The translations under genes were made by a program, and so were the position numbers. From Gemmatimonadota bacterium (GTDB lineage Bacteria; JAAXHH01), in the NCBI GenBank assembly GCA_009838645.1, contig VXRC01000008.1, positions 1-64,000 on the forward strand: a DNA stretch of 64,000 nt, read 5' to 3'. The notes below the pieces were generated by a model. The model was given only the letters and a program-made list of their open reading frames with translations. It was not told where the DNA came from and did no database searches. Within the stretch, counting starts at the first letter, position 1; every line of letters starts with the position of its first letter. Shown here in pieces: positions 290 through 55,595 of the stretch.

Positions 290-1387
290 ATGCGACCAAC
301 GCCAGCGGACCCGGGCATAAATCAAGTTCCGCTCCTCACCAGTAGCCAAATCGCCCAATTCAAGCGTGACGGATTCCTCGTGCTGCCCGGCGTGCTCGAT
401 CCTGAACTTTGCCGCCAGGCCAGGGAAGCGCTGTGGGATGCGGTGGAGACGCACCATCCTGCCATGAAGCGTGCCGATCCCTCAACCTGGGCGCCTTTCA
501 ACGACGAAGTAAGCGGCCAACTGAAGGCGAAGCGGCCCGAAATCGGCGGTGACCCCTATTTCTTCACCGAAGGCCACCGCTTCTATATCCGCAACGGCGC
601 AGAGCCCTTCATGCTCGACCTGGCCCCCCGGGCCCTTTGGCAGGTCGCCGAGCAATTGCTTGGCCAGGGCACGGTGGTATGGCCGGCCGGAGCGGATGAC
701 TCGGGCATGACGACGGGGCCGTGCTTCATGTCCGACGACGTGGTGGGCGGGCTGGCCAGCCACGGGGTCGAAGCGACCGGGCGATGGTCCGAGAAGGGAT
801 CCTTCACCACGGAAAAAGCGCTGCGTCTGCCCAGGACGGGTCCGGTGTGGTCCACCGGGCAAGGGACACGCGGCCTGTACTGCACCCTGCCGGGCAGTCC
901 GTCTCCCGGTCCGGACTACCGCGGCGCCCATACCGACGGCGCATGCTACGGCCGCGTCCGGTTTCAGGTTACCGCCTATGTCGACGACCTGCCGCCCGGC
1001 TCCGGCGGCTTCACGGTTTGGCCGGGAAGCCACAGCCGGATCTGGCGCGCGCAGTGGCAGGCCTTTCTCGAAGGCGCAAAGCATATGGACGAACACCTGG
1101 CGGGACGCAAGCCCGGCTACAACGATCCGGTAATTCAGCGCATCAAGCGCGATACCCAACCCGTCGATTGCCACGGCCCCGCAGGCACGGCGGTCCTGTG
1201 GCACACCAAAATCCTGCACATCGCCGGACAGAATACGTCGGCCGACGTCATCCGCCAGGCGACCATCTACGGCTTCCTAAAAACGCCGGAATCCCTGCCG
1301 GACTCGCTCATGACGGACCAAACCAACATGGATATCTGGAGGGATTGGTCTGATGAGGTGCGGGACGTTGATGAGGCGATTGCGTAG
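290..1387 (+). CDS. Phytanoyl-CoA dioxygenase (PhyH) family protein
   Basis: A 365-residue Fe(II)/2-oxoglutarate-dependent oxygenase of the PhyH family, which hydroxylates small organic substrates; the substrate here is unknown. The iron-binding facial triad is visible: H214-T-D216 in the stretch AHTDGACYG, and the distal histidine near residue 310 (KILHIAGQN). An arginine about 12 residues later probably binds 2-oxoglutarate. GSGGFTVWPGSHS (about 237-249) is typical of the double-stranded beta-helix core. The ATG at 290 is preceded by GGAGGT at 9 bases. There is no signal peptide, so it is cytoplasmic. It stands alone, but two further PhyH proteins occur at 5.9 and 8.2 kb. Confidence 0.9.
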   Translation: MRPTPADPGINQVPLLTSSQIAQFKRDGFLVLPGVLDPELCRQAREALWDAVETHHPAMKRADPSTWAPFNDEVSGQLKAKRPEIGGDPYFFTEGHRFYIRNGAEPFMLDLAPRALWQVAEQLLGQGTVVWPAGADDSGMTTGPCFMSDDVVGGLASHGVEATGRWSEKGSFTTEKALRLPRTGPVWSTGQGTRGLYCTLPGSPSPGPDYRGAHTDGACYGRVRFQVTAYVDDLPPGSGGFTVWPGSHSRIWRAQWQAFLEGAKHMDEHLAGRKPGYNDPVIQRIKRDTQPVDCHGPAGTAVLWHTKILHIAGQNTSADVIRQATIYGFLKTPESLPDSLMTDQTNMDIWRDWSDEVRDVDEAIA

Positions 1388-1470: not shown

Positions 1471-1671
1471 GTGTCAACATACGTTTCAATTGACCCCGAA
1501 CTACTTGACAAAGCGCTCCAGGTCGGTGGGGAGAAAACCAAAAAGGAGACCGTCAACAAAGCCTTGAGGGAGTTCATCGCGCGACGGGAACAGGAACGGC
1601 TACTCGATATGTTCGGCAATTTCGACTGGGATGAAGTGTACAACTACAAGCGCGAGCGGATGCGACGTTGA
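1471..1671 (+). CDS. Orphan VapB-type antitoxin
   Basis: A 66-residue protein beginning STYVSIDPELLDKALQVGG and continuing EKTKKETVNKALREFIARR. This is the ribbon-helix-helix pattern of VapB family antitoxins, which bind DNA with the N-terminus and neutralise a PIN-domain VapC RNase with the C-terminus (acidic/aromatic tail LLDMFGNFDWDEVYNYKRE). I chose the GTG at 1471 because it gives the usual VapB N-terminus; GGAGG lies about 12 bases upstream. A GTG at 1450 would add seven residues. No full toxin gene follows. Only a short frame overlapping the stop codon remains before the convergent ATPase gene, so this is probably an orphan left by truncation. Confidence 0.75.
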   Translation: MSTYVSIDPELLDKALQVGGEKTKKETVNKALREFIARREQERLLDMFGNFDWDEVYNYKRERMRR

Positions 1672-1716: not shown

Positions 1717-4362
1717 TTACTTCTTTACTGACTCTTCGTCTATCTCACGCAATATATCCCTTGCCACCTCCATTACCTCAACCGGCGCACGCACTTTTTC
1801 ACCTAAGCGTATCCTAAGAGCTGCAATTAATGGTGTTAGAGTTTTTGCTTTCTGTTCGTCACTCACCAAAACATCCAGGATGGTTCTTTCAGACGTCCCG
1901 ACTGCAACCATACTAACTACACCAGATTGCATCATGACCATCGAGTCGTCGTTTTCCGGATCGAATTCATTGTAAATTGACTTGAACAAGGTAGAAGAAG
2001 CATCCACATCTGACTTGTGATAAAGCGACTTAATTCTTATCCAGGAAGTAATAGTTTTTTCTGTTGTGTTTTTGCTTTCCTCGTCCTTAAGTCGTCTATC
2101 TGCATCGTCACACGTAAGTAATGCTTCATCATACTTTTTTAAGTCGATTAGGTAATACGCCATGGCTACTAAGGCTCTAACGACATGTGTTTGGACGACC
2201 TTCCTTTCAACTTTGCCGAAACGTTTTACTATGGATTTGAATGTTGTTACTGCCTCCGTATACTGACCTTGTTCGCCACGTACAAGTCCCTTGTTCAATA
2301 GTGCTCTTGCAACGGACGACTGGAGTTCGGTCGACGTGCTATCGCTGAAACGCTCGATGACGGAATCTAACGTGTCAACAGCTGCTTCGAAGTCGCCACT
2401 CTTGTTTTGTGAAACACCTTTGTTGTTCATCGCTTCGGCGACAACCGTCATAATCCCATCTTCCGAATCTTTTCCATATCGATTGACTACCTCATCGTAA
2501 GAAGTAATCTCTTCCTCGTTTCTACCAAGTTCCCTTTTAAGCATACCGCCATTTAGTAAAGCTTCGGCGACTACCTTCCGAATATGAGGGTCCGCGATAT
2601 TTACGTAGCGACTGACGACTGCCTCTGTCGTTGCTAACGCAGCGTTCTGGTCGCCGAGATTGCCTTCCGATCTGCTCTTGTTGAGCATCGTTGTAGCAAC
2701 GCATACACGCACTCTAGGTTCGGTGCTATCGCCAAACTGTTTTATTGTTTCGTCATATGATGCGATTGCAGCCTCGTATTCTCCTTTTCGGTCATAAATG
2801 TGACCGATGGCTATTGATGCTAAGGCGACGAGGATTTCGACGTCTGGAATCTTTATGCTTCCAAATTCTTCAACAATAGAAGCGTAAATGGGTATTGCAT
2901 CATCAAATTTACCCAGATGATACAACAGGTTTCCTTCAGCCCACTTGGGGCTGACACGAAATAAAAGTTGCTGTCGCTGTGAAAGACCGGACAGTGAAGA
3001 ATCTTGAGATGCCAAATTAGAAGGACCAGGTTCTGCAACAGTAGAAATCGCTTTATTGTAAAGATAGTCAAGGTGAGGGATTTCTGTTCTTGCCTTATCC
3101 AACCCCTCTCTAATAACCGGAAATTCTATGGCTTCTGTTCTAAATCCTTCGGCCAGTGTCGCAAGTTCTTGTTTGGTGTAAAACACCGCCATAAACCTTA
3201 TCAGGTATTGCACGATGGCTGCTTCACCTTGTTCACGTCTGATTTTGTAGTAAATGCTGTATAGTCTCTCCGCGGCGGAGTACAAGCGCTTCCTACCTGT
3301 TCCATGACCCATTACCATTTCACGGTCGATCAGTCTGCCAAGAAGGCTGGAAACACTGCGAACATCCATACGTGCTCGTGCCGCGATCTCGCTGGTACTT
3401 GAAGGCTGCCATAGATCAATCGTGGCCAGATAGACGCGTCGCTCCGTTTGTGCCAGTGCTTCGAGATGACTGCGGAAATACTCGGTATGATCGTCTACGA
3501 GCCCCACCAGTTCTTCCATCAATTTACGCAACGAGCGATGTCCGGCGAACTCCGCGACGATGACAAGCAGGCGTGGGCTTCCTCCAGTAAGAATCTGTAG
3601 CGGGCGAATGCGGCGTTCAGACACACCATCGCCGCTGATTACCTGCCACAGCCTTTGGCAAGCTTCGGTATCCAACGGATTCAGGTCAAGTATCCGGAAC
3701 AGTTCGAAGAAGGGTTCCCGTACGTCATCCAACCGCTCAAAACGCTTGGTGGCAGTACAAAGCAGGATGATCTGAGGTTCAGTCTGCAACGTCTCTCGCA
3801 ACTGCCAGCCGAAGTTGTCGTCCACGGCATCACACAATGTCTGCATGTTCTCGATCATGAGAACGAGTTTTCGGCCCAAACGATCCGACGCATCTAGAAC
3901 CGTGACTTTAGCCCGTTCCGCCAGGAATTCGCCCCGCCATTGACCGGCCAGATCGGCATGGGTGGCCAGTAACTCCCGGGAGAGGTCCTGATCAGTACGC
4001 GCGATCTCTTTTGAAAGATAGAAGAGCGTTTCAAGCCAGAAGTCGGCGATGTCGAATACCTCGTGACTTTCTTCCATGAATCGCACTGGCAGCATGCTCC
4101 GGGACAGTTCATTGTCAGCACGCAGCTCCGCGGCGACACGGGCTAACAGCATGGTCTTGCCTCTGCCTCGGGGTGCAATAAGAAGAACGTGCTGACAAGC
4201 AGGCGTTTCGATATTCCCGCGCAGCACATCAGTCACGATCCCCAGTTCAGGTTGTCGTACCACGAACTGTCTGATTACCTCTTCATCGGACTGAAATGTC
4301 CCTGGATTAAACTTTCGTATCGTACGGGCCTGGGCCGGACTCTTGGCTGTTTCTTCACTCAT
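1717..4362 (-). CDS. ATPase with winged helix and extended TPR array
   Basis: An 881-residue protein. The N-terminal P-loop NTPase has Walker A APRGRGKT (about residues 63-70) and a Walker B-like strand KLVLMIEN (about 165-172) with Glu in place of the usual Asp. A winged-helix segment follows at about 300-380. From about 480 to 720 there are roughly five TPR-like units of about 40 residues (recurring pattern YDE.I..FGDS..P.....VA.ALLNKG). This NTPase-winged helix-TPR order is seen in STAND-like signalling ATPases, many linked to conflict systems. The ATG at 4362 has GAGG 8 bases upstream; a GTG at 4371 is the alternative. It is the second gene of a pair, 27 bases after the 410-residue ATPase. 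Base composition is clearly more AT-rich than flanking genes. Confidence 0.8.
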   Translation of the reverse strand: MSEETAKSPAQARTIRKFNPGTFQSDEEVIRQFVVRQPELGIVTDVLRGNIETPACQHVLLIAPRGRGKTMLLARVAAELRADNELSRSMLPVRFMEESHEVFDIADFWLETLFYLSKEIARTDQDLSRELLATHADLAGQWRGEFLAERAKVTVLDASDRLGRKLVLMIENMQTLCDAVDDNFGWQLRETLQTEPQIILLCTATKRFERLDDVREPFFELFRILDLNPLDTEACQRLWQVISGDGVSERRIRPLQILTGGSPRLLVIVAEFAGHRSLRKLMEELVGLVDDHTEYFRSHLEALAQTERRVYLATIDLWQPSSTSEIAARARMDVRSVSSLLGRLIDREMVMGHGTGRKRLYSAAERLYSIYYKIRREQGEAAIVQYLIRFMAVFYTKQELATLAEGFRTEAIEFPVIREGLDKARTEIPHLDYLYNKAISTVAEPGPSNLASQDSSLSGLSQRQQLLFRVSPKWAEGNLLYHLGKFDDAIPIYASIVEEFGSIKIPDVEILVALASIAIGHIYDRKGEYEAAIASYDETIKQFGDSTEPRVRVCVATTMLNKSRSEGNLGDQNAALATTEAVVSRYVNIADPHIRKVVAEALLNGGMLKRELGRNEEEITSYDEVVNRYGKDSEDGIMTVVAEAMNNKGVSQNKSGDFEAAVDTLDSVIERFSDSTSTELQSSVARALLNKGLVRGEQGQYTEAVTTFKSIVKRFGKVERKVVQTHVVRALVAMAYYLIDLKKYDEALLTCDDADRRLKDEESKNTTEKTITSWIRIKSLYHKSDVDASSTLFKSIYNEFDPENDDSMVMMQSGVVSMVAVGTSERTILDVLVSDEQKAKTLTPLIAALRIRLGEKVRAPVEVMEVARDILREIDEESVKK

Positions 4363-4389
4363 CGCGGTCACCTCATTCCTAGTGTTCCC

Positions 4390-5622
4390 TCACCCATCGC
4401 GGACCTGGCCACGTAGCTCGATAGGAACGTGATGATGACCAAACCGCGCGGCCCACCAGTCCTTCAGCAGGCACGATGGAAATTGGTAGCCTGCTTCGCG
4501 TGACTCCAGGTAACCGTCATGTTCGAGTATGTCGAGGACCTCCGAGATGCGATCAGGTGCGTCATCTACTAGCGGTAAGTATAGGTTGCCGAGTATTCGT
4601 TGTACTTCGGGAGTCAGGACTTCCTTCGTGGATGTTTCTGCCAGTACTTCCATAGCAATGGTGTGGTCCTGATCATCGCCCAAAGCATCCTTCAGGCGCG
4701 TTTCATAGTGAATAAGATCGTTTTGTCCGGCTGGTCCTAGAAGTACGTTTTTATATACGACTTCCACATCCAAAACAGACACCTGGTTTTTGCCCTGTAA
4801 GAGTGCGTGATCGGTCAGCCTGGCGAAAAACGACTGGACTTGATGCGGAATCCCTATTCCGAGTCGCTCATAAACAGCTTCTGCAACATCCGAATCGATC
4901 TTAAGTGTCGAATTGTCGGCGAGTCGAAACAGACACTCGATGGTGGCTTCACGGCTCCATGGGCCTAATCTAAATGGGTCGAGATAGTTAATGCGATCAG
5001 GTATGCCGAGTCGACGTACGAGTGGAGTCAGTCCAATACTACCGGATACCATGAGTACTAGCGATCCTCCACTAAAGTGTTGCAGCACTCCTCGCAGCCA
5101 ACTCAGAAACTCGTCGACTTTCTGCCGGCCTCCCTCTGCATGGAGCATTCGTTTGAGAAAAATCGGCATTTCATCGACGACAAGGAATACCGGGTTTGCA
5201 TGAGCAGCACAGTATCGAAGTAAACCGCCGCCATGTTCCTTCCAGTTCTTTTCGCTCAAACCGGCCCGTACTCTCAGCCGGAAATCAAAAGCACCGATTT
5301 CGTCAAAACTCTCGGTGAACCATCGCTGCATCGTTCGTGCAAATCGTGATGAGATCGAACGAATCGGGTGTACCGCTTCCGCAATATCCGAGATCACATC
5401 TTCCGGGCCAGTCGCACCTTCGACGTCAGCAAACAGAAACACCCATCCGTCTGCCTCAAGTCGACGCCCCAGTTCCCGTGCGATACTGGTCTTGCCCATA
5501 CGACGCTGACCTGTCAGCAACACGTGGTTTCCATTCCGCACTCGCTGATCGAGTATGCGTAGTTCGTTTTCTCGATCAAAAAAGTCTTCACCACTCACCC
5601 ATGGACCGGTAACAGATTTCAT
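4390..5622 (-). CDS. Archaeal-ATPase-like AAA protein
   Basis: A 410-residue P-loop ATPase. Walker A is GQRRMGKTS (38-46), Walker B is VFLVVDEMP with D150-E151, a sensor-like strand LVLMVSGS follows, and the C-terminus (about 310-395) looks like a winged helix. The opening FFDRENELRILDQRV is characteristic of the archaeal ATPase/MNS group, often found in mobile or defence loci. It is the first gene of a two-gene operon with the TPR ATPase downstream. AGGAG lies 5 bases before the ATG at 5622, behind a promoter with two tandem palindromes. The partner ATPase probably works with it as sensor or effector, but no nuclease, protease or membrane effector domain is recognisable in either protein. 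Confidence 0.82.
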   Translation of the reverse strand: MKSVTGPWVSGEDFFDRENELRILDQRVRNGNHVLLTGQRRMGKTSIARELGRRLEADGWVFLFADVEGATGPEDVISDIAEAVHPIRSISSRFARTMQRWFTESFDEIGAFDFRLRVRAGLSEKNWKEHGGGLLRYCAAHANPVFLVVDEMPIFLKRMLHAEGGRQKVDEFLSWLRGVLQHFSGGSLVLMVSGSIGLTPLVRRLGIPDRINYLDPFRLGPWSREATIECLFRLADNSTLKIDSDVAEAVYERLGIGIPHQVQSFFARLTDHALLQGKNQVSVLDVEVVYKNVLLGPAGQNDLIHYETRLKDALGDDQDHTIAMEVLAETSTKEVLTPEVQRILGNLYLPLVDDAPDRISEVLDILEHDGYLESREAGYQFPSCLLKDWWAARFGHHHVPIELRGQVRDG

Positions 5623-5678
5623 TTTAACTCCTGTTTTTTGTGATTTAGCCGACTGGGATTCGTGTAGTTTCTCCGATC

Positions 5679-5707
5679 AAGATATTAGTCAACAATTTTG
5701 TTGTCAA
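5679..5707 (-). promoter_or_regulatory. Sigma70-type promoter of the ATPase pair
   Basis: On the minus strand TTGACA (5702-5707) is followed after 17 bases by TATCTT (5679-5684), about 57 bases upstream of the 410-residue ATPase start. The -35 box and spacer are covered by the tandem palindromes. Confidence 0.6.
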
Positions 5708-5718
5708 CAGATTTGTTG
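5690..5718. promoter_or_regulatory. Tandem operator-like palindromes
   Basis: Two 14-base inverted repeats, CAACAATTTTGTTG (5690-5703) and CAACAGATTTGTTG (5705-5718), share arms CAACA/TGTTG and are one base apart, so their centres lie 15 bases apart. They cover the -35 box and spacer of the ATPase promoter, which suggests repression by a dimeric regulator. No regulator gene is adjacent. Confidence 0.55.
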
Positions 5719-5923
5719 AAATTATTGCAGATTGACTGAGTTTATGCTTACAGATTTTGCGTGGAGGTGATTCCATGATATAGACCACCGGAGAGTTTGA
5801 CCTTGACATCCGACAGAGAATCGGGCATTGCTAAACATCATCGTGCACCCCAATTCGCATCGTATATTGTATAGTCGATCAAGCCAAAGTGTTTGTCGCA
5901 CGGACTGAACGATCGGAGGCACA

Positions 5924-6850
5924 ATGTCTACCGAGCAAGCCACGGATACCGACACAGACAAAGGGGACGCGTCGGCAATGGCCGTCGAGAATTCCACCAC
6001 TTCCAGCCCCACCCCCGCCCCCATGACCGATGAGCTGAAGTTCTTCTTCGACCTGAAGGGCTGGATCCTCGTGCCCTCCGTACTGACGGAGACCGAGGTC
6101 GAGGAAATGAAGGCCGAGGTGTATGCCGCAGTTGAGCCGGACAACAAGGGCAAGAACAGCGGTTTTAAAAGGGGTTACCACGGCAAGTTGGCCGATCTGC
6201 TCGATCACCCGGCCGTGGTGGGCATTCTCAATGAGATCCTGACCGAGCCGCCCTTCGTGGGGGACGACCACTACGGTTTCCGCTGTGAAAACTCCTTCCT
6301 CATGGTGAGGGAACCCGGCTGGGAATCGACCGTCAAGGGCACCGGGTTGCCCCATGTCGTGCGTCCTCCCCAGCAGGCCAACGCCATGCGCTACCAGGTG
6401 CAGGGCGGCAAGATCTTCGCGGGACTCACCCGGGTGGTCTGGGAACTGGAGGAGGTCAAGGCAGGATACGGCGGCACTTCCTTTCTGAGCGGATCGCACA
6501 AGGCCCATTTCAATTATGGTGGCCCGGACCGGTACCGACCCAACATCAGCGATTCACCATGGGAGGAAAGTCTCTATGCCGCCATGGAGGATTACAGTTG
6601 TCCGCCGGGGTCGATGCTGGTCTTCACCGAGAGCCTCATCCACGCGGCGAACGACTGGACCAATCCGGACAACCGGCGCTGCGCGGTGTTCAACTGCTAC
6701 AACTCGATCTGGGCGCAGTGGCACCGGCTCAACCTCGACCACGAGATCATCGACAAGATGCCTCCAAAGCGGCAGTCCCTCTTTCGCGGTACGTGGCAAC
6801 TGGGGGGCGATGGGAACCGAACCTACTCGCTGGACAACCGGTCGGTGTAA
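5924..6850 (+). CDS. PhyH family protein with altered iron motif
   Basis: A 308-residue PhyH-family protein. The N-terminal 35 residues are Thr/Ser/Pro-rich and probably disordered. The fold is recognisable from FFDLKGWILVPSVLT (41-55), GYGGTSFLSGSHK (181-193) and CPPGSMLVFTESLIHAAND (226-244). The distal histidine is H240. At the position of the usual H-x-D the sequence reads GLPH144-V-V, so the iron-binding carboxylate appears to be missing. GGAGG sits 4 bases before the ATG. It is the first gene of a PhyH/enolase-superfamily/PhyH cluster on the same strand and likely acts on the same substrate class. Substrate unknown. Confidence 0.85.
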   Translation: MSTEQATDTDTDKGDASAMAVENSTTSSPTPAPMTDELKFFFDLKGWILVPSVLTETEVEEMKAEVYAAVEPDNKGKNSGFKRGYHGKLADLLDHPAVVGILNEILTEPPFVGDDHYGFRCENSFLMVREPGWESTVKGTGLPHVVRPPQQANAMRYQVQGGKIFAGLTRVVWELEEVKAGYGGTSFLSGSHKAHFNYGGPDRYRPNISDSPWEESLYAAMEDYSCPPGSMLVFTESLIHAANDWTNPDNRRCAVFNCYNSIWAQWHRLNLDHEIIDKMPPKRQSLFRGTWQLGGDGNRTYSLDNRSV

Positions 6851-9132: not shown

Positions 9133-9420
9133 ATGGACATTGGCTTCGACTGGAGCACCGAAAAGAACCGGCGGCTCATTGAACAGCGGGGAATCTCGTT
9201 CGAGCGCGTTGTCGTTGCCATAGAACAAGGCGGTCTGGTGGACGTGCTCGAACACCCAAACCGGGACAGCTACCCGGACCAGTTAATCTACGCCGTGGAA
9301 ATCGATAAATACATTCACCTCGTGCCTTTCGTGAAGCAGGCCGACGGCACTCACTTTCTGAAGACGATCATTCCCAGCCTGAAGGCAACGAGGGACTACA
9401 GAAGGAGACAGAAATCGTGA
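9133..9420 (+). CDS. BrnT-like toxin
   Basis: A 95-residue protein starting MDIGFDWSTEKNRRLIEQRGISFERV, the layout of BrnT toxins (F-W-D/S-x-x-K-N...HG-V/I-S-F), which are RelE-fold RNases. The C-terminal half (LIYAVEIDKYIHLVPFVKQADG, KTIIPSLKATRDYRRR) matches the beta-strands and basic tail of that fold. The stop overlaps the start of the next gene by four bases, the usual toxin-antitoxin order toxin first. The gene appears to be transcribed without a 5' leader. Confidence 0.75.
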   Translation: MDIGFDWSTEKNRRLIEQRGISFERVVVAIEQGGLVDVLEHPNRDSYPDQLIYAVEIDKYIHLVPFVKQADGTHFLKTIIPSLKATRDYRRRQKS

Positions 9421-9692
9421 AGGACGAATTGAGTGCAGAAGAGCGCGATGTGCTTGATCGATTCGAAAGGGACGAGTTGCGCACCGCCCCCGATGCCGAA
9501 CGGGAGATCAAGGCCGCCCGGCAGGCGGCTCGCAATACGTTCAATAAAACCAAACGGGTGAATCTCCGGGTGACCGAGCGTGACTTCAATCTTGCACACG
9601 CGCGGGCCAGGGAAGAGGGGATACCCTATCAGACGCTGCTGTCCAGCGTCATCCACAAATACCTGTCCGGACGCCTTACAGAGAAGAAGTAG
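9417..9692 (+). CDS. Antitoxin partner of BrnT-like toxin
   Basis: A 91-residue basic/acidic protein. The segment KTKRVNLRVTERDFNLAHARAREEGIPYQTLLSSVIHKYLSG (about 44-85) is a ribbon-helix-helix fold of the BrnA/CopG type: one DNA-binding strand followed by two helices. The N-terminal 40 residues are acidic and helical and probably wrap the toxin. The GTG start at 9417 overlaps the toxin stop (GTGA), so the two are translationally coupled. It should neutralise the toxin and repress the shared promoter. Confidence 0.72.
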   Translation: MKDELSAEERDVLDRFERDELRTAPDAEREIKAARQAARNTFNKTKRVNLRVTERDFNLAHARAREEGIPYQTLLSSVIHKYLSGRLTEKK

Positions 9693-34973: not shown

Positions 34974-35726
34974 ATGCCTTCCTCAATAGAGTGGACAGAC
35001 GAGACCTGGAACCCGGTAACAGGTTGCAGCCGGGTGTCTCCCGGTTGTGATCATTGTTACATGTTTACACTATATCCGAGACTAAAAGGTATGGGTGTAT
35101 CAGGTTACCGTTCATCCCCCGATGATGTGACGTTGATACCCGATCGACTGGAGATTCCATTTACCTGGAAAAACCCAAGACATGTTTTCGTCAACAGTAT
35201 GTCGGATGTATTTCATAATCGAATACCCTTCGACTTCATATATCGCATTTTTCGGGTAATGCAGGAATCTTCCGATCGTCATGGCCATGTTTTTCAGGTG
35301 TTGACAAAAAGACCAGGGCGTGCGGTCGCTTGGTGGAAAGCATATGAAGATTCCTTTCCCGACGGCTGGCCTCCTGGGGTATGGATTGGGACATCGGTCG
35401 AGAACCAAAAATACGCGCCACGGCTAACCGTACTCGCACGATTACCTGCAAAAATTCGGTTTGTATCAGCCGAACCCTTGCTCGAGCAGGTTGACCTAGA
35501 ACCATGGCTGGAAAACGGTAGGTTACAGTGGGTAATTGTTGGTGGAGAGAGTGGTCCAAGCGCTCGACCCATGGAACTGAATTGGGTACGGTATCTACGC
35601 GACCAGTCTGTAAATGCGAGTGTTCCTTTTTTTCTGAAGCAACTTGGTGGTAGTCGAAATAAGCAGAGCGGGGATACTGCAGTCGTTGATGGCCGTCAGT
35701 GGAGAGAAATGCCCATTCAGGAGTAA
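34974..35726 (+). CDS. DUF5131 (phage Gp37/Gp68-like) three-Cys protein
   Basis: A 250-residue protein starting MPSSIEWTDETWNPVTGC. The three cysteines C18, C25 and C28 (GCSRVSPGCDHCY) give the family's three-Cys motif, which resembles a radical-SAM iron-sulphur site. Also typical are RVFVNSMSDVFH-like (HVFVNSMSDVFHN), HVFQVLTKRPGRA, WIGTSVENQ, RFVSAEPLLE and VIVGGESGPSARPM. The family is found on phages and mobile elements; the reaction is unknown. It is followed after 9 bases by TcmP, its usual partner. The gene is more AT-rich than its neighbours, consistent with transfer. GGGAAAG lies 6 bases before the ATG. Confidence 0.9.
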   Translation: MPSSIEWTDETWNPVTGCSRVSPGCDHCYMFTLYPRLKGMGVSGYRSSPDDVTLIPDRLEIPFTWKNPRHVFVNSMSDVFHNRIPFDFIYRIFRVMQESSDRHGHVFQVLTKRPGRAVAWWKAYEDSFPDGWPPGVWIGTSVENQKYAPRLTVLARLPAKIRFVSAEPLLEQVDLEPWLENGRLQWVIVGGESGPSARPMELNWVRYLRDQSVNASVPFFLKQLGGSRNKQSGDTAVVDGRQWREMPIQE

Positions 35727-35735
35727 AGTAGCATT

Positions 35736-36587
35736 ATGGTTTCATTCGGAGGTATATGGACTCAAAAGAAACTTGAGATACTGGGCGAGTATCTGGACAG
35801 GTACACCACAGTACTGAAAAACCAAAGGTTTCGCCTGATCTACGTTGATGCATTCGCAGGTGAAGGAGAATGGAGGTCTGGTGAAAGATCAGGTTATACG
35901 ACAGATGTATATGGTGATTTTCAAAAGGTTCACGAAGGTTCACCCAAGATCGCCTTAAGTGTTCAAAAACGGCCTTTCGATAGGTTCGTATTCATTGAAA
36001 AAGACCCTAATCGTTGCTACAAGCTAGAAAGTTTGAGATCTGAGTTTCCAAACCGTGACATGGAAATAAGGCATGGAGATGCTAATTCCGAAATAGACTC
36101 ATTTTGCAAAGGAATGGGGAATTACGATCGTGCCGTCGTCTTTCTTGATCCTTTTGCCACCCAGGTTTCTTGGAACACAGTTTCTAATTTGGCTCAAACT
36201 GAGAAGGTAGACTGCTGGATTCTGTTCCCCCTGAGTGCGATCGCACGCATGATGCCCGTTGAATCTGAACCTTCGGAAGCTATGGCTGGTCAACTAGATA
36301 GGATCTTTGGAAAGCGACAATATTGGTGGGAAGATGTTTATCATCCTCCAGCTCAGCAGAACATGTTTGATGAAGAACCAGGCCAAGTTCGTACGCAAGG
36401 CAGCAAACAAATCGCCGCTTGTTACCGCAATCGTCTTGAAGACGTCTTTAAGATGGTCGCGCCTACTCCTCGTACTTTCTACAATTCCAAACAGTCCCCC
36501 CTGTTCGAGTTGTTTTTTGCAGCCAGTAACCCAACTGGTGCACCAAAAGCCGTGAGAATTGCAGACCATATCCTTAAAAAATGGTGA
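35736..36587 (+). CDS. tcmP: Three-Cys-motif partner protein TcmP
   Basis: A 283-residue protein with WTQKKLEILGEYLDRYTTVLKNQRFRLIYVDAFAGEGEW near the N-terminus, the hallmark of TcmP. The fold resembles a methyltransferase-like Rossmann domain: DAFAGEG for the first glycine loop, FVFIEKDPNRCYKLESL, IRHGDANSEI and AVVFLDPFATQVSW for the DPF-type motif. It is always reported next to three-Cys radical-SAM-like proteins, as here (9-base gap). The biochemical role is unknown. AT-rich composition matches the partner gene. A 19-base hairpin spans its stop codon. Confidence 0.9.
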   Translation: MVSFGGIWTQKKLEILGEYLDRYTTVLKNQRFRLIYVDAFAGEGEWRSGERSGYTTDVYGDFQKVHEGSPKIALSVQKRPFDRFVFIEKDPNRCYKLESLRSEFPNRDMEIRHGDANSEIDSFCKGMGNYDRAVVFLDPFATQVSWNTVSNLAQTEKVDCWILFPLSAIARMMPVESEPSEAMAGQLDRIFGKRQYWWEDVYHPPAQQNMFDEEPGQVRTQGSKQIAACYRNRLEDVFKMVAPTPRTFYNSKQSPLFELFFAASNPTGAPKAVRIADHILKKW

Positions 36588-49027: not shown

Positions 49028-49164
49028 GCCGTTTATCATCCTCGGAGCATGGCCCGCGCTATACCACGCCCCAGGATACTTAGCCGGAGCGACTACGCCG
49101 GATGGCCACGCTTTCCATTATCCATGTACACCGGACGACTTCAGTCCACGGAAGTGCCGATGAA

Positions 49165-49360
49165 AACTATGGCGCAGGTCGGTCTTCTGGCTTCCGGATC
49201 GTTCTACTCGCCGCGCCTTCCCATTCCTTTCGGAACAGTGGCTCAAGCCCATAAGGCTCATGATGCGGCTTTCGTCCCCGGTCACAGCGACGGGTCCGCG
49301 ACGGATTCGCACCGTCTTCCCAACTTCTCACCTGCTACGGTCAATGTAGTGCCACCGTGA
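49165..49360 (-). promoter_or_regulatory. Cobalamin riboswitch
   Basis: Read on the minus strand, the region has the conserved core of the B12 aptamer: GGGAAGACGGTGCGAATCC, then a segment with GGACCCGTCGCTGTGACC, a GAGCCACTG joining element, GGGAAGGCGCGGC, and the B12 box GAAGCCAGAAGACCGACC (about 49178-49195). An intrinsic terminator follows about 140 bases downstream, then the BtuB-like receptor gene. High cobalamin should favour the terminator and lower receptor synthesis. End points are approximate. Confidence 0.93.
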
Positions 49361-49478
49361 CGGGAGATCAATCGAAAAGCGTGAATTGTCTTGAGGTATC
49401 CACCGCTCCGTGACTAATATCCCATGTACTGCAATACTGGAACTCAACCAGGTATATAGTTCGAACGGGACAAACACC

Positions 49479-54205: not shown

Positions 54206-54279
54206 GCCCCAGTAGCTCAGTTGGACAGAGCATCGGACTTCTAATCCGAGGGTCGCAGGTTCGAATCCTGCCTGGGGTA
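54206..54279 (+). tRNA. tRNA-Arg (anticodon TCT)
   Basis: A 74-base cloverleaf: acceptor GCCCCAG/CTGGGGT with one G-U end pair, D stem GCTC/GAGC, anticodon stem TCGGA/TCCGA with loop CTTCTAA (anticodon TCT), T arm GCAGG-TTCGAAT-CCTGC, discriminator A at 54279; CCA is not encoded. It marks the left edge of an accessory segment. Confidence 0.97.
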
Positions 54280-54434
54280 TACCGACCTCGCATCAAACCG
54301 TCGTATGCCATCCCCGGATCATGTCGATTAAACTACGAACCTATGGCGCATTGCGACTAGGTTGAGGCAAGTTATACCACGGTAACCGAAATCAGGAGCA
54401 GCCTACCCGGCACTCTAACGCAGGAGACCTGCTG

Positions 54435-55595
54435 ATGTTCAAGGTAGACCTTACAGCCAATCACCTCGTCCAGCTTGAAGAACGACGTTTCAGCGATCTG
54501 AAACTGAATGAGCGCGATCACCTCCAGGAATGGTTGGTGCATACGCCGGAGGCGTTAGGCGAGGATCTCCTTGTCATCCAAAAGGAATTCGACGGCTTCG
54601 AAGACACCAGGGAACGTCTTGATCTCCTTGCCCTCGACAAGGAAGGCCGAGTGGTGGTCATCGAGAATAAACTCGATGATTCGGGCCGAGATGTCGTATG
54701 GCAGGCGCTCAAGTACGTCGCCTATTGTTCCAGTTTGAAGAAGGCAGAGATCGTCGACATCTATCAGAAGTATCTCAACCGGTGGGTCGACGGCGAGAGT
54801 GCGATACCAAACCTTTGCGAATTCCTCGGTGTTGAGGATCTCGACGACACCGTGCTTAATGCGGGTAACGAGCAGCGGCTGATACTGGTCGCCGCGAATT
54901 TCCGCAAGGAGGTGACGGCGACCGTACTCTGGCTGATCGGGCACGGGGTCGAGGCGCAGTGTTTCCGGGTAGTGCCTTACAGCTTCGGCGAGGAGCTTCT
55001 GATCGACCTGCAACAGATTATCCCCACTCCGGAGGCCGCGGACTACATGATTGGAATGGCCAACAAGGAATCGGAGGAGAAAGCCAGTCAGCGCACTTTA
55101 ACGCAAACACAACAGTTGAGGCACGCGTTTTGGGAAAAGACCTTGGAGGCACTCCGCGCTCGTGGCGTATCACGGTATGAGAATATCAGTCCGTCCAGGG
55201 ATCACTGGCTAGCGAGTTCTACAGGTGTAGCGGGCTGCGGGTACAACATGATCTTTGGTAAAAACCTCGCGCGCGTGGATCTTTATATGACGCGCTCGCA
55301 AGCGGACGAGAATAAACGAATTTTCGATCAGCTCATTCAGGAAAAGCAGGATATCGAAAGCCGGTTCGGGAAAGAACTAAATTGGCAGCGATTAAATGAC
55401 AAAAAAGCATGTCGTATCAGTTTTCCGCACTCATTCGATGGATTCGACGAAGAAAACTGGCCAGAAATGATTGAATGGCTCTGCGAGCACATTGTCAAGC
55501 TGGAGGAGGCGTTCTCTGATCCGCTGGACCGCGTGAACCGAGATATGAAATCTTGGAGCGACATAACGACTGCCGAAGAAACCGTCCCCTCCTGA
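54435..55595 (+). CDS. PD-(D/E)XK nuclease-like protein with DUF4268-type C-terminus
   Basis: A 386-residue protein. The N-terminal domain has the nuclease core D63 (ERLDLLALD), E77-N-K79 (VVVIENKLDDSGRDVVWQALKYV), spaced as in NucS/restriction-type PD-(D/E)XK enzymes. The C-terminal part (about 230-350: FWEKTLEALRARGVSRYENISPSRDHWLA, RVDLYM, ENKRIFDQLIQEKQDIESRFG) resembles DUF4268. Such proteins are common in defence islands and are thought to cut nucleic acid; the target is unknown. AGGAG is 8 bases before the ATG. It is the first gene after the tRNA-Arg, a frequent insertion site. Confidence 0.8.
   Translation: MFKVDLTANHLVQLEERRFSDLKLNERDHLQEWLVHTPEALGEDLLVIQKEFDGFEDTRERLDLLALDKEGRVVVIENKLDDSGRDVVWQALKYVAYCSSLKKAEIVDIYQKYLNRWVDGESAIPNLCEFLGVEDLDDTVLNAGNEQRLILVAANFRKEVTATVLWLIGHGVEAQCFRVVPYSFGEELLIDLQQIIPTPEAADYMIGMANKESEEKASQRTLTQTQQLRHAFWEKTLEALRARGVSRYENISPSRDHWLASSTGVAGCGYNMIFGKNLARVDLYMTRSQADENKRIFDQLIQEKQDIESRFGKELNWQRLNDKKACRISFPHSFDGFDEENWPEMIEWLCEHIVKLEEAFSDPLDRVNRDMKSWSDITTAEETVPS

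Follow-up and report, generated by a model that had tools for sequence, protein, structure and literature searches.

What can a compact operon of two different ATPases do in a bacterial genome when neither product carries a recognized effector domain? The question is raised by a gene pair near the start of contig VXRC01000008.1 of a Gemmatimonadota bacterium (assembly GCA_009838645.1, positions 1 to 64,000 of the forward strand; this whole stretch of 64,000 nucleotides is referred to as the window). The upstream gene, A, encodes an AAA+ ATPase, and the downstream gene, B, encodes an NTPase resembling the signal transduction ATPases with numerous domains (STAND), followed by a winged helix and an array of tetratricopeptide repeats (TPRs). 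On balance, we regard the locus as a self-contained, horizontally exchanged and self-regulated two-protein conflict module of the STAND type, probably directed against phages or plasmids; sensing, output and phage defence are functions that we infer for the pair. An initial annotation of this DNA had already described an operon for proteins of 410 and 881 amino acids with a 27-base gap, AT-richer than its surroundings and equipped with its own promoter. Coordinates and gap agree with ours when B is read from its ATG (an alternative GTG start at 4371 gives 884 amino acids and a gap of 18 bases), and the GC content of the pair is 49.5%, against 64.4% and 60.7% in the two flanking dioxygenase genes, PhyH1 and PhyH2. 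The promoter is likewise present: its bare consensus is matched no better than by chance (2 matches, 4.4 expected), and it is credible because a conserved tandem operator covers its -35 box, an arrangement that close relatives conserve together with the operator. The ratio of nonsynonymous to synonymous substitution rates (dN/dS) in comparisons with sister genomes is well below 1 throughout the pair, so both genes have been kept functional, and their reading frames are not due to chance, since both are conserved across phyla under purifying selection. The operator, the genomic hot spot, the degenerate Walker B motif of B and its mosaic TPR region, described below, go beyond that annotation.

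A and B form one inherited, widespread unit. When 85,462 species genomes were searched for A, 14 loci were obtained, distributed over Latescibacterota, Bryobacterales, a Desulfurellaceae bin, Caldilineaceae, Gammaproteobacteria, Rhodobacteraceae, Rhodothermales and Binatia, and B followed A in all 13 with a long enough contig. Among 399 Pseudomonadota genomes, the profiles of A and B matched the identical six genomes, with the genes adjacent in 6/6, and when loci from several phyla were collected with the B profile, A was directly upstream in 25 of the 25 that could be judged. Co-location in unrelated genomes had been set beforehand as a check on the joint-system idea, and these counts did not refute it. 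B was also found in 8/350 Chloroflexota and 6/385 Alphaproteobacteria genomes; since the genome samples include the centre genome, the resulting rates of 1.5-2.3% are slightly high. The apparent lack of A beside B at four loci (L008, L091, L100 and L102) was ruled out by tblastn, which located the gene, and at L143 and L159 A is split into two reading frames. The only exceptions among the loci read are two solo B genes on plasmids of Agrobacterium (L018, 5848-9195) and Sphingobium (L019, 1043-4144), and a second Agrobacterium plasmid holds a close homologue. Both solo genes adjoin nucleotide cyclase genes, accompanied at L019 by a Pycsar effector gene. Distant pairs occur on Moraxella plasmids (L016, L017 and L021), and a Segatella copri plasmid (L020, 5998-8045) carries an A homologue followed by a 298-aa ATPase that is not a full B, with a WYL-domain gene just upstream.

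The two proteins differ in their catalytic equipment. A gives AAA_16 and AAA_22 matches above the Pfam cut-offs and contains a Walker A motif (GQRRMGKTS) and a Walker B acidic pair (D150-E151). Because this D-E pair is kept in all 33 loci compared, A should hydrolyse ATP. Its AlphaFold model (mean predicted local distance difference test score, pLDDT, of 82) combines an AAA+ core with a C-terminal winged helix, the fold of origin recognition complex (ORC) and archaeal-type ATPases, and matches 2qen (E 8e-11), 2fna (E 2e-10) and then ORC2 (E 2e-8) over nearly the whole length. The earlier label "archaeal-ATPase-like" for A holds at the level of the fold, matched by 2qen and 2fna, and not at that of the ATPase_2 family (PF01637), for which the score of 21.3 bits lies below the curated cut-off of 33.2. 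For B, Pfam gives an AAA_16 match that stays under the cut-off, together with a TrmB-like winged helix and numerous TPRs. Its P-loop (APRGRGKT) has a G.GK signature that is invariant in 33/33 loci and its GG.PR motif of the GxP type is conserved, whereas the Walker B motif has E171-N172 and lacks the catalytic glutamate; across the same loci the acidic position is E in 30 and D in 3, and the next residue is N in 32 and S in 1. Judged by these motifs, B should bind ATP, although the catalytic base that such enzymes usually have is missing. That this difference holds so constantly over 33 loci suggests a mixed assembly of A and B.

The order of modules in B, a P-loop with a GxP-type motif, then a winged helix, then a C-terminal repeat sensor, is that of STAND proteins. 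The best Foldseek match of the model (pLDDT 74.5) is the STAND-TPR protein PH0952 (PDB 6mfv), which, together with the motifs, upholds the STAND-like NTPase-winged helix-repeat layout proposed in the initial annotation. By this architecture, B belongs to the broad class of STAND/TPR sensors, with the usual effector domain missing. In the AlphaFold2 (AF2) model, the winged helix (residues 305-363) consists of helices 305-316, 323-330 and 334-346 and a beta wing. The putative sensor is the variable part of the protein: main-clade B proteins range from ~700 to 1002 amino acids, and almost all of this variation falls in the TPR part, the ATPase core being kept. Compared with the sister genome G004, the window genome (G000) has 122 of 454 synonymous sites changed in codons 1-640 and 97 of 162 in the remainder (Fisher p = 1.4e-13); the same contrast appears against G009 and not between G004 and G009 (p 0.6). 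As the synonymous change jumps after codon 640 against both sisters, the TPR half of B in the window was most likely replaced by recombination.

A conserved operator suggests how the pair may be regulated. In the main clade, the palindrome TCAACA-N4-TGTTGA lies upstream of A at 16/16 loci, with overlapping copies 15 bp apart at 15 of them, and 38 copies (at most two core mismatches) were observed against 2.5 expected from dinucleotide shuffles. Other clades carry other palindromes at the same position (TGCCAACA-N4-TGTTGGCA, TTGGCA...TGCCAA, TGTCGTACGACA and AACTATA...TATAGTT), and a few loci, such as L020 and L100, have no clear palindrome. The palindrome changes together with the recognition helix of the winged helix of B. 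Both solo B loci that were read retain GCCAACA-type palindromes, which argues that B, and not A, is the likely binder of the operator. We consider it quite probable that B represses the operon by docking its winged helix on the operator across the -35 box. Neither the exact palindrome nor the tandem site is found in the window genome anywhere but at the promoter of the pair, and four genomes without the pair (G002, G003, G010 and G011) lack the tandem site; the operator is therefore a property of the module rather than the mark of a large regulon. A larger regulon was accordingly rejected for the window genome on the basis of these genome-wide searches. Extra sites in other genomes fall at remnants of A (L179 and L180), at another pair, at hicAB promoters or inside coding frames, or they are weak and isolated, without a clear A or B in the vicinity (L181-L183). 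The hicAB promoters (L106, L107, L113 and L114) carry ACAACA-N4-TGTTGA overlapping TTGACA, much like the main-clade operator. A host HicB was set aside as the binder of the operator, both because the exact-pattern scan of the window genome finds only two sites, both at the promoter of the pair, and because other clades carry entirely different palindromes.

A dedicated operator and a winged helix are also what would be expected of a regulator of other genes, and the genes beside a few of the pairs give this thought some substance. As the initial annotation had proposed to check, homologues often lie close to defence or toxin-antitoxin (TA) genes: within a few kb of many loci outside the genus are type I restriction-modification (RM) genes, AbiE, AbiL-like, HEC-01, AbiD, HsdR and DNA methylase genes, a PRTase-CE gene with an ORC-CDC6-like gene, and PD-Lambda-4/Avs4-like and Ppl-like genes. 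Such company speaks for the conflict module. Since an immune gene directly follows B at a few of them (Ppl-like at L104/L150, PD-Lambda-4/Avs4-like at L016, and also L017), the foremost rival is that the pair is an ATP-dependent sensing and transcription switch for neighbouring immune genes, in the manner of MalT, AfsR or CapK/CapS, rather than a defence system. The closely similar Moraxella pairs preceding differing downstream genes, and the nucleotide cyclase and Pycsar genes beside the solo B genes, point the same way. The Moraxella osloensis plasmids concerned carry different cassettes next to similar pairs, namely a PD-Lambda-4/Avs4-like gene with a NACHT protein (L016) and a dUTPase-PRTase-CE-ORC-CDC6-like series (L017). 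Against such a switch stand the restriction of the tandem operator to the pair's own promoter in the window genome, the nature of the extra sites listed above, and the layout of most loci, where the pair has no companion or is followed by a convergent gene. On this evidence, the switch is improbable, although it is the strongest competitor of the conflict module.

The genomic site of the pair behaves as a hot spot for exchange. In the 12 genomes of the genus, PhyH1 (11/12) and PhyH2 (12/12) border an interval in which PADLOC and Pfam identify known defence genes in some close relatives and which stands empty in others. It is essentially empty in G002 and G010 (~70 bp between the homologous blocks), and holds a PIN-domain gene in G006, a MazE-like gene in G007, type I RM genes with a 1519-aa STAND-like protein in G011, and AbiEi/AbiEii, type I RM, a DRT1a reverse transcriptase, a PDC-M54A-like protein and the A/B pair in G005. 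The latter interval (L059 and L060) is a 25-kb defence island, and its PDC-M54A-like protein is a STAND-like protein of 1515 aa. The pair is present in 6/12 genomes: alone or with VapB in G000, G004 and G008, within the island of G005, and next to PhyH2 in G009 and G012, the contigs of G009 breaking inside the interval. Relative to the window, the identity of A is 94-96% in G004 and G009, 78% in G008 and 63% in G005 and G012, against 87-92% for PhyH2 in the same genomes. The 63% alleles differ roughly as much as alleles from other phyla do, a sign of horizontal exchange at one site. In G007, a degraded operator with three mismatches persists inside the hot spot with no A or B gene, which suggests loss of the pair.

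At the left edge of the module, homology between the window and G003, which has no pair and retains vapB with a deleted vapC remnant (L052), ends at 1677, at the start of vapC, where the module begins. The pair thus sits in the place of vapC at a TA-rich site, and it occurs on plasmids; together with two tightly coupled genes and a tandem palindromic operator over the -35 box, this recalls a TA-like maintenance module in which A or an ATP-bound complex would be harmful, with B restraining it and repressing the operon. However, Pfam, NCBIfam, PADLOC and fold searches assign neither protein to a toxin fold or an antitoxin family, the protein sizes are untypical, and the TPR array and its exchange point to a variable recognition target, so that we assign this alternative a low probability. 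Lower still is the probability that the pair regulates housekeeping or host interaction, with eukaryote-like TPRs as are typical of sponge symbionts, and came to lie in the hot spot by accident. TPRs are reported as the main eukaryote-like repeat in sponge-associated Latescibacterota (PMC12993501), and the window genome, to judge from the nearest relatives with a name, is itself a metagenome-assembled genome of Latescibacterota; its relatives are mostly environmental genomes of this kind, several of them apparently sponge symbionts. Yet the pair is patchy within the genus, rare in the genome samples (6/399, 8/350 and 6/385) and present on plasmids of skin Moraxella, and its alleles at one site span 63-96% identity, beyond the range of PhyH2. 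Hardly credible is the idea that A is ORC-like in function too, initiating replication of a mobile element whose iterons would be the palindromes: the fold of A resembles ORC2/Cdc6 and the repeats adjoin the gene, but these are two or three 16-bp palindromes on the -35 box, found also at solo B genes without A, the contigs that bear the loci are mostly chromosomal, and the pair has no replicon or transposition gene as a regular companion.

Table 1. Position of the gene pair, its parts and the bordering features in the window.
Feature	Coordinates	Strand	Remarks
Gene A	4390..5622	-	410 aa; AAA+ ATPase of the ORC/archaeal-ATPase type; C-terminal winged helix
Gene B	1717..4362	-	881 aa from ATG; STAND-like NTPase, winged helix, TPR
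Promoter	5679..5707	-	-35 TTGACA (5702-5707, inside operator), 17-bp spacer, -10 TATCTT
Tandem palindromic operator	5689..5719	-	TCAACAAATCTGTTGACAACAAAATTGTTGA; two overlapping copies 15 bp apart; overlaps -35
Winged helix of B	3268..3465	-	residues ~300-365; Pfam TrmB and PADLOC Csa3 winged helix-turn-helix (wHTH) matches; proposed operator-binding domain
TPR sensor solenoid of B	1843..2979	-	residues 462-840; Pfam and AF2 model
C-terminal half of TPR region of B	1720..2442	-	residues 641-881; apparent recombinational replacement relative to G004 and G009
PhyH1	290..1387	+	left border of hot spot, outside module
Orphan VapB antitoxin gene	1471..1671 (site 1471-1705)	+	outside module; vapC expected next is missing
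PhyH2	5924..6850	+	right border of hot spot, outside module

The preferred conflict module would work in several steps of unequal probability. Starting from the repressed state described above, it is rather likely, slightly less so than repression itself, that B and A form a mixed ATPase assembly to which A supplies hydrolysis. For the trigger, the chances are about even: a product of the invader would bind the TPR solenoid, B would be freed from autoinhibition and from DNA, expression would rise, and A and B would assemble in an ATP-dependent manner. Opening of B would follow the manner of STAND proteins, as outlined in PMC6468293, and the ATPase of A would power or reset the complex. The output is more speculative: possibly, an ORC-like A/B assembly acts on nucleic acid, so that the invader can no longer replicate or be expressed, or the cell itself is shut down. 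An output by the assembly itself is favoured over a separate effector because most loci carry no third gene. In its most far-reaching form, which we find doubtful, the proposal is of an undescribed immune class built as an asymmetric machine: B would be its hydrolysis-dead STAND-TPR sensor and A its active ORC-like ATPase, and the winged helix of B would serve as sequence-specific DNA-binding and effector part. Two ATPases would then combine sensing, self-repression and attack on invader DNA, and no separate effector would be needed.

Several observations weigh against the conflict module. The covariation of operator and recognition helix is partly shared descent, which also inflates the correlation between A and B distances (r = 0.985 over 33 loci), and the solo B genes show at least one branch that does without A. 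The association with defence neighbours is a numerically uncontrolled observation, and some pairs lie beside metabolic genes, such as guanylate kinase (L007) and a TRAP-like permease (L161), both named by eye. No relatives of A or B were found in IMG/VR viral contigs (alignments of both proteins) or in phage genomes (B search). The nucleotide-binding domain of B is modelled partly at low confidence (residues 195-267, mostly pLDDT <50). Finally, the usual STAND effector domain is absent from both proteins in Pfam, NCBIfam and PADLOC, just as the initial annotation had stated. STAND proteins usually carry at least one effector domain at either end, a usual and not obligatory feature (PMC6468293).

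Elsewhere in the window, four further features were recorded. A likely BrnT/BrnA-type TA pair of low GC content lies beside a third PhyH gene (9133-9692), with a weak CopG_antitoxin match for the second gene only. A DUF5131 gene followed by a TcmP-like gene (three-Cys-motif partner, by eye) spans a dip to 47-51% GC at 34974-36587 and looks acquired. A DUF4268 nuclease-like protein is encoded directly after tRNA-Arg(tct) at 54206-55595, a possible tRNA-associated island, and a cobalamin riboswitch (Rfam RF00174, 93.5 bits) lies on the reverse strand at 49160-49371.

How does the pair relate to known systems? Neither PADLOC v2.0.0 nor NCBIfam 20.0 contains a full-length model for A or B, and membership in a named system of these collections was rejected, the only matches being weak and partial (mad8, PDC-S01 and Csa3). 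Searches of the open literature, subscription papers and preprints being outside this coverage, likewise turned up no named two-ATPase STAND system, in keeping with the earlier remark that the second-ATPase partner had no system name. The similarity to the MADS ATPase mad8 (E 9e-6) is limited to the P-loop region (residues 11-110), and no complete MADS system was seen near the loci examined. The closest folds to A are the PF01637-like archaeal ATPases PABY2304 (2qen) and SSO1545 (2fna) and, beyond these, ORC2/Cdc6; unlike them, A is bacterial, falls below the PF01637 cut-off and is the constant partner of B wherever it is found in full.

STAND switches underlie the immunity of plants and animals through nucleotide-binding leucine-rich-repeat (NLR) proteins and that of bacteria through Avs (AVAST) and bNACHT proteins, usually as one protein with its effector. 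Avs and bNACHT systems combine a STAND-type switch with a repeat sensor in defence islands, and the effector is usually part of the same polypeptide; no Avs model matches A or B, and only on a single Moraxella plasmid is the pair followed by an Avs4/PD-Lambda-4-like protein. A two-ATPase form without effector, with an operator that tracks its protein and a swappable sensor, would be another way of building a STAND switch, and the operator sequence can be used directly for finding further members, including remnants.

Closest to B is the PH0952-type STAND ATPase (6mfv), in which a GxP-motif NTPase, a winged helix and a TPR solenoid follow in the same order (PMC6468293). PH0952 is a predicted transcription factor that uses a separate ArsR-like domain, and the available portions of that report mention no A-type partner. 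B has no such separate DNA-binding domain, and its only winged helix would therefore have to bind DNA; if this is true, B would be an exception to the view of the STAND winged helix as a clamp only. In its apparent autoregulation, the pair resembles immune operons controlled by a dedicated repressor, such as BrxR/CapW (WYL) and CapK/CapS (PMC9122588, PMC9122589 and PMC13373217). In those systems the regulators are encoded by separate genes, whereas in this pair the regulation appears to be built into one of the two core proteins.

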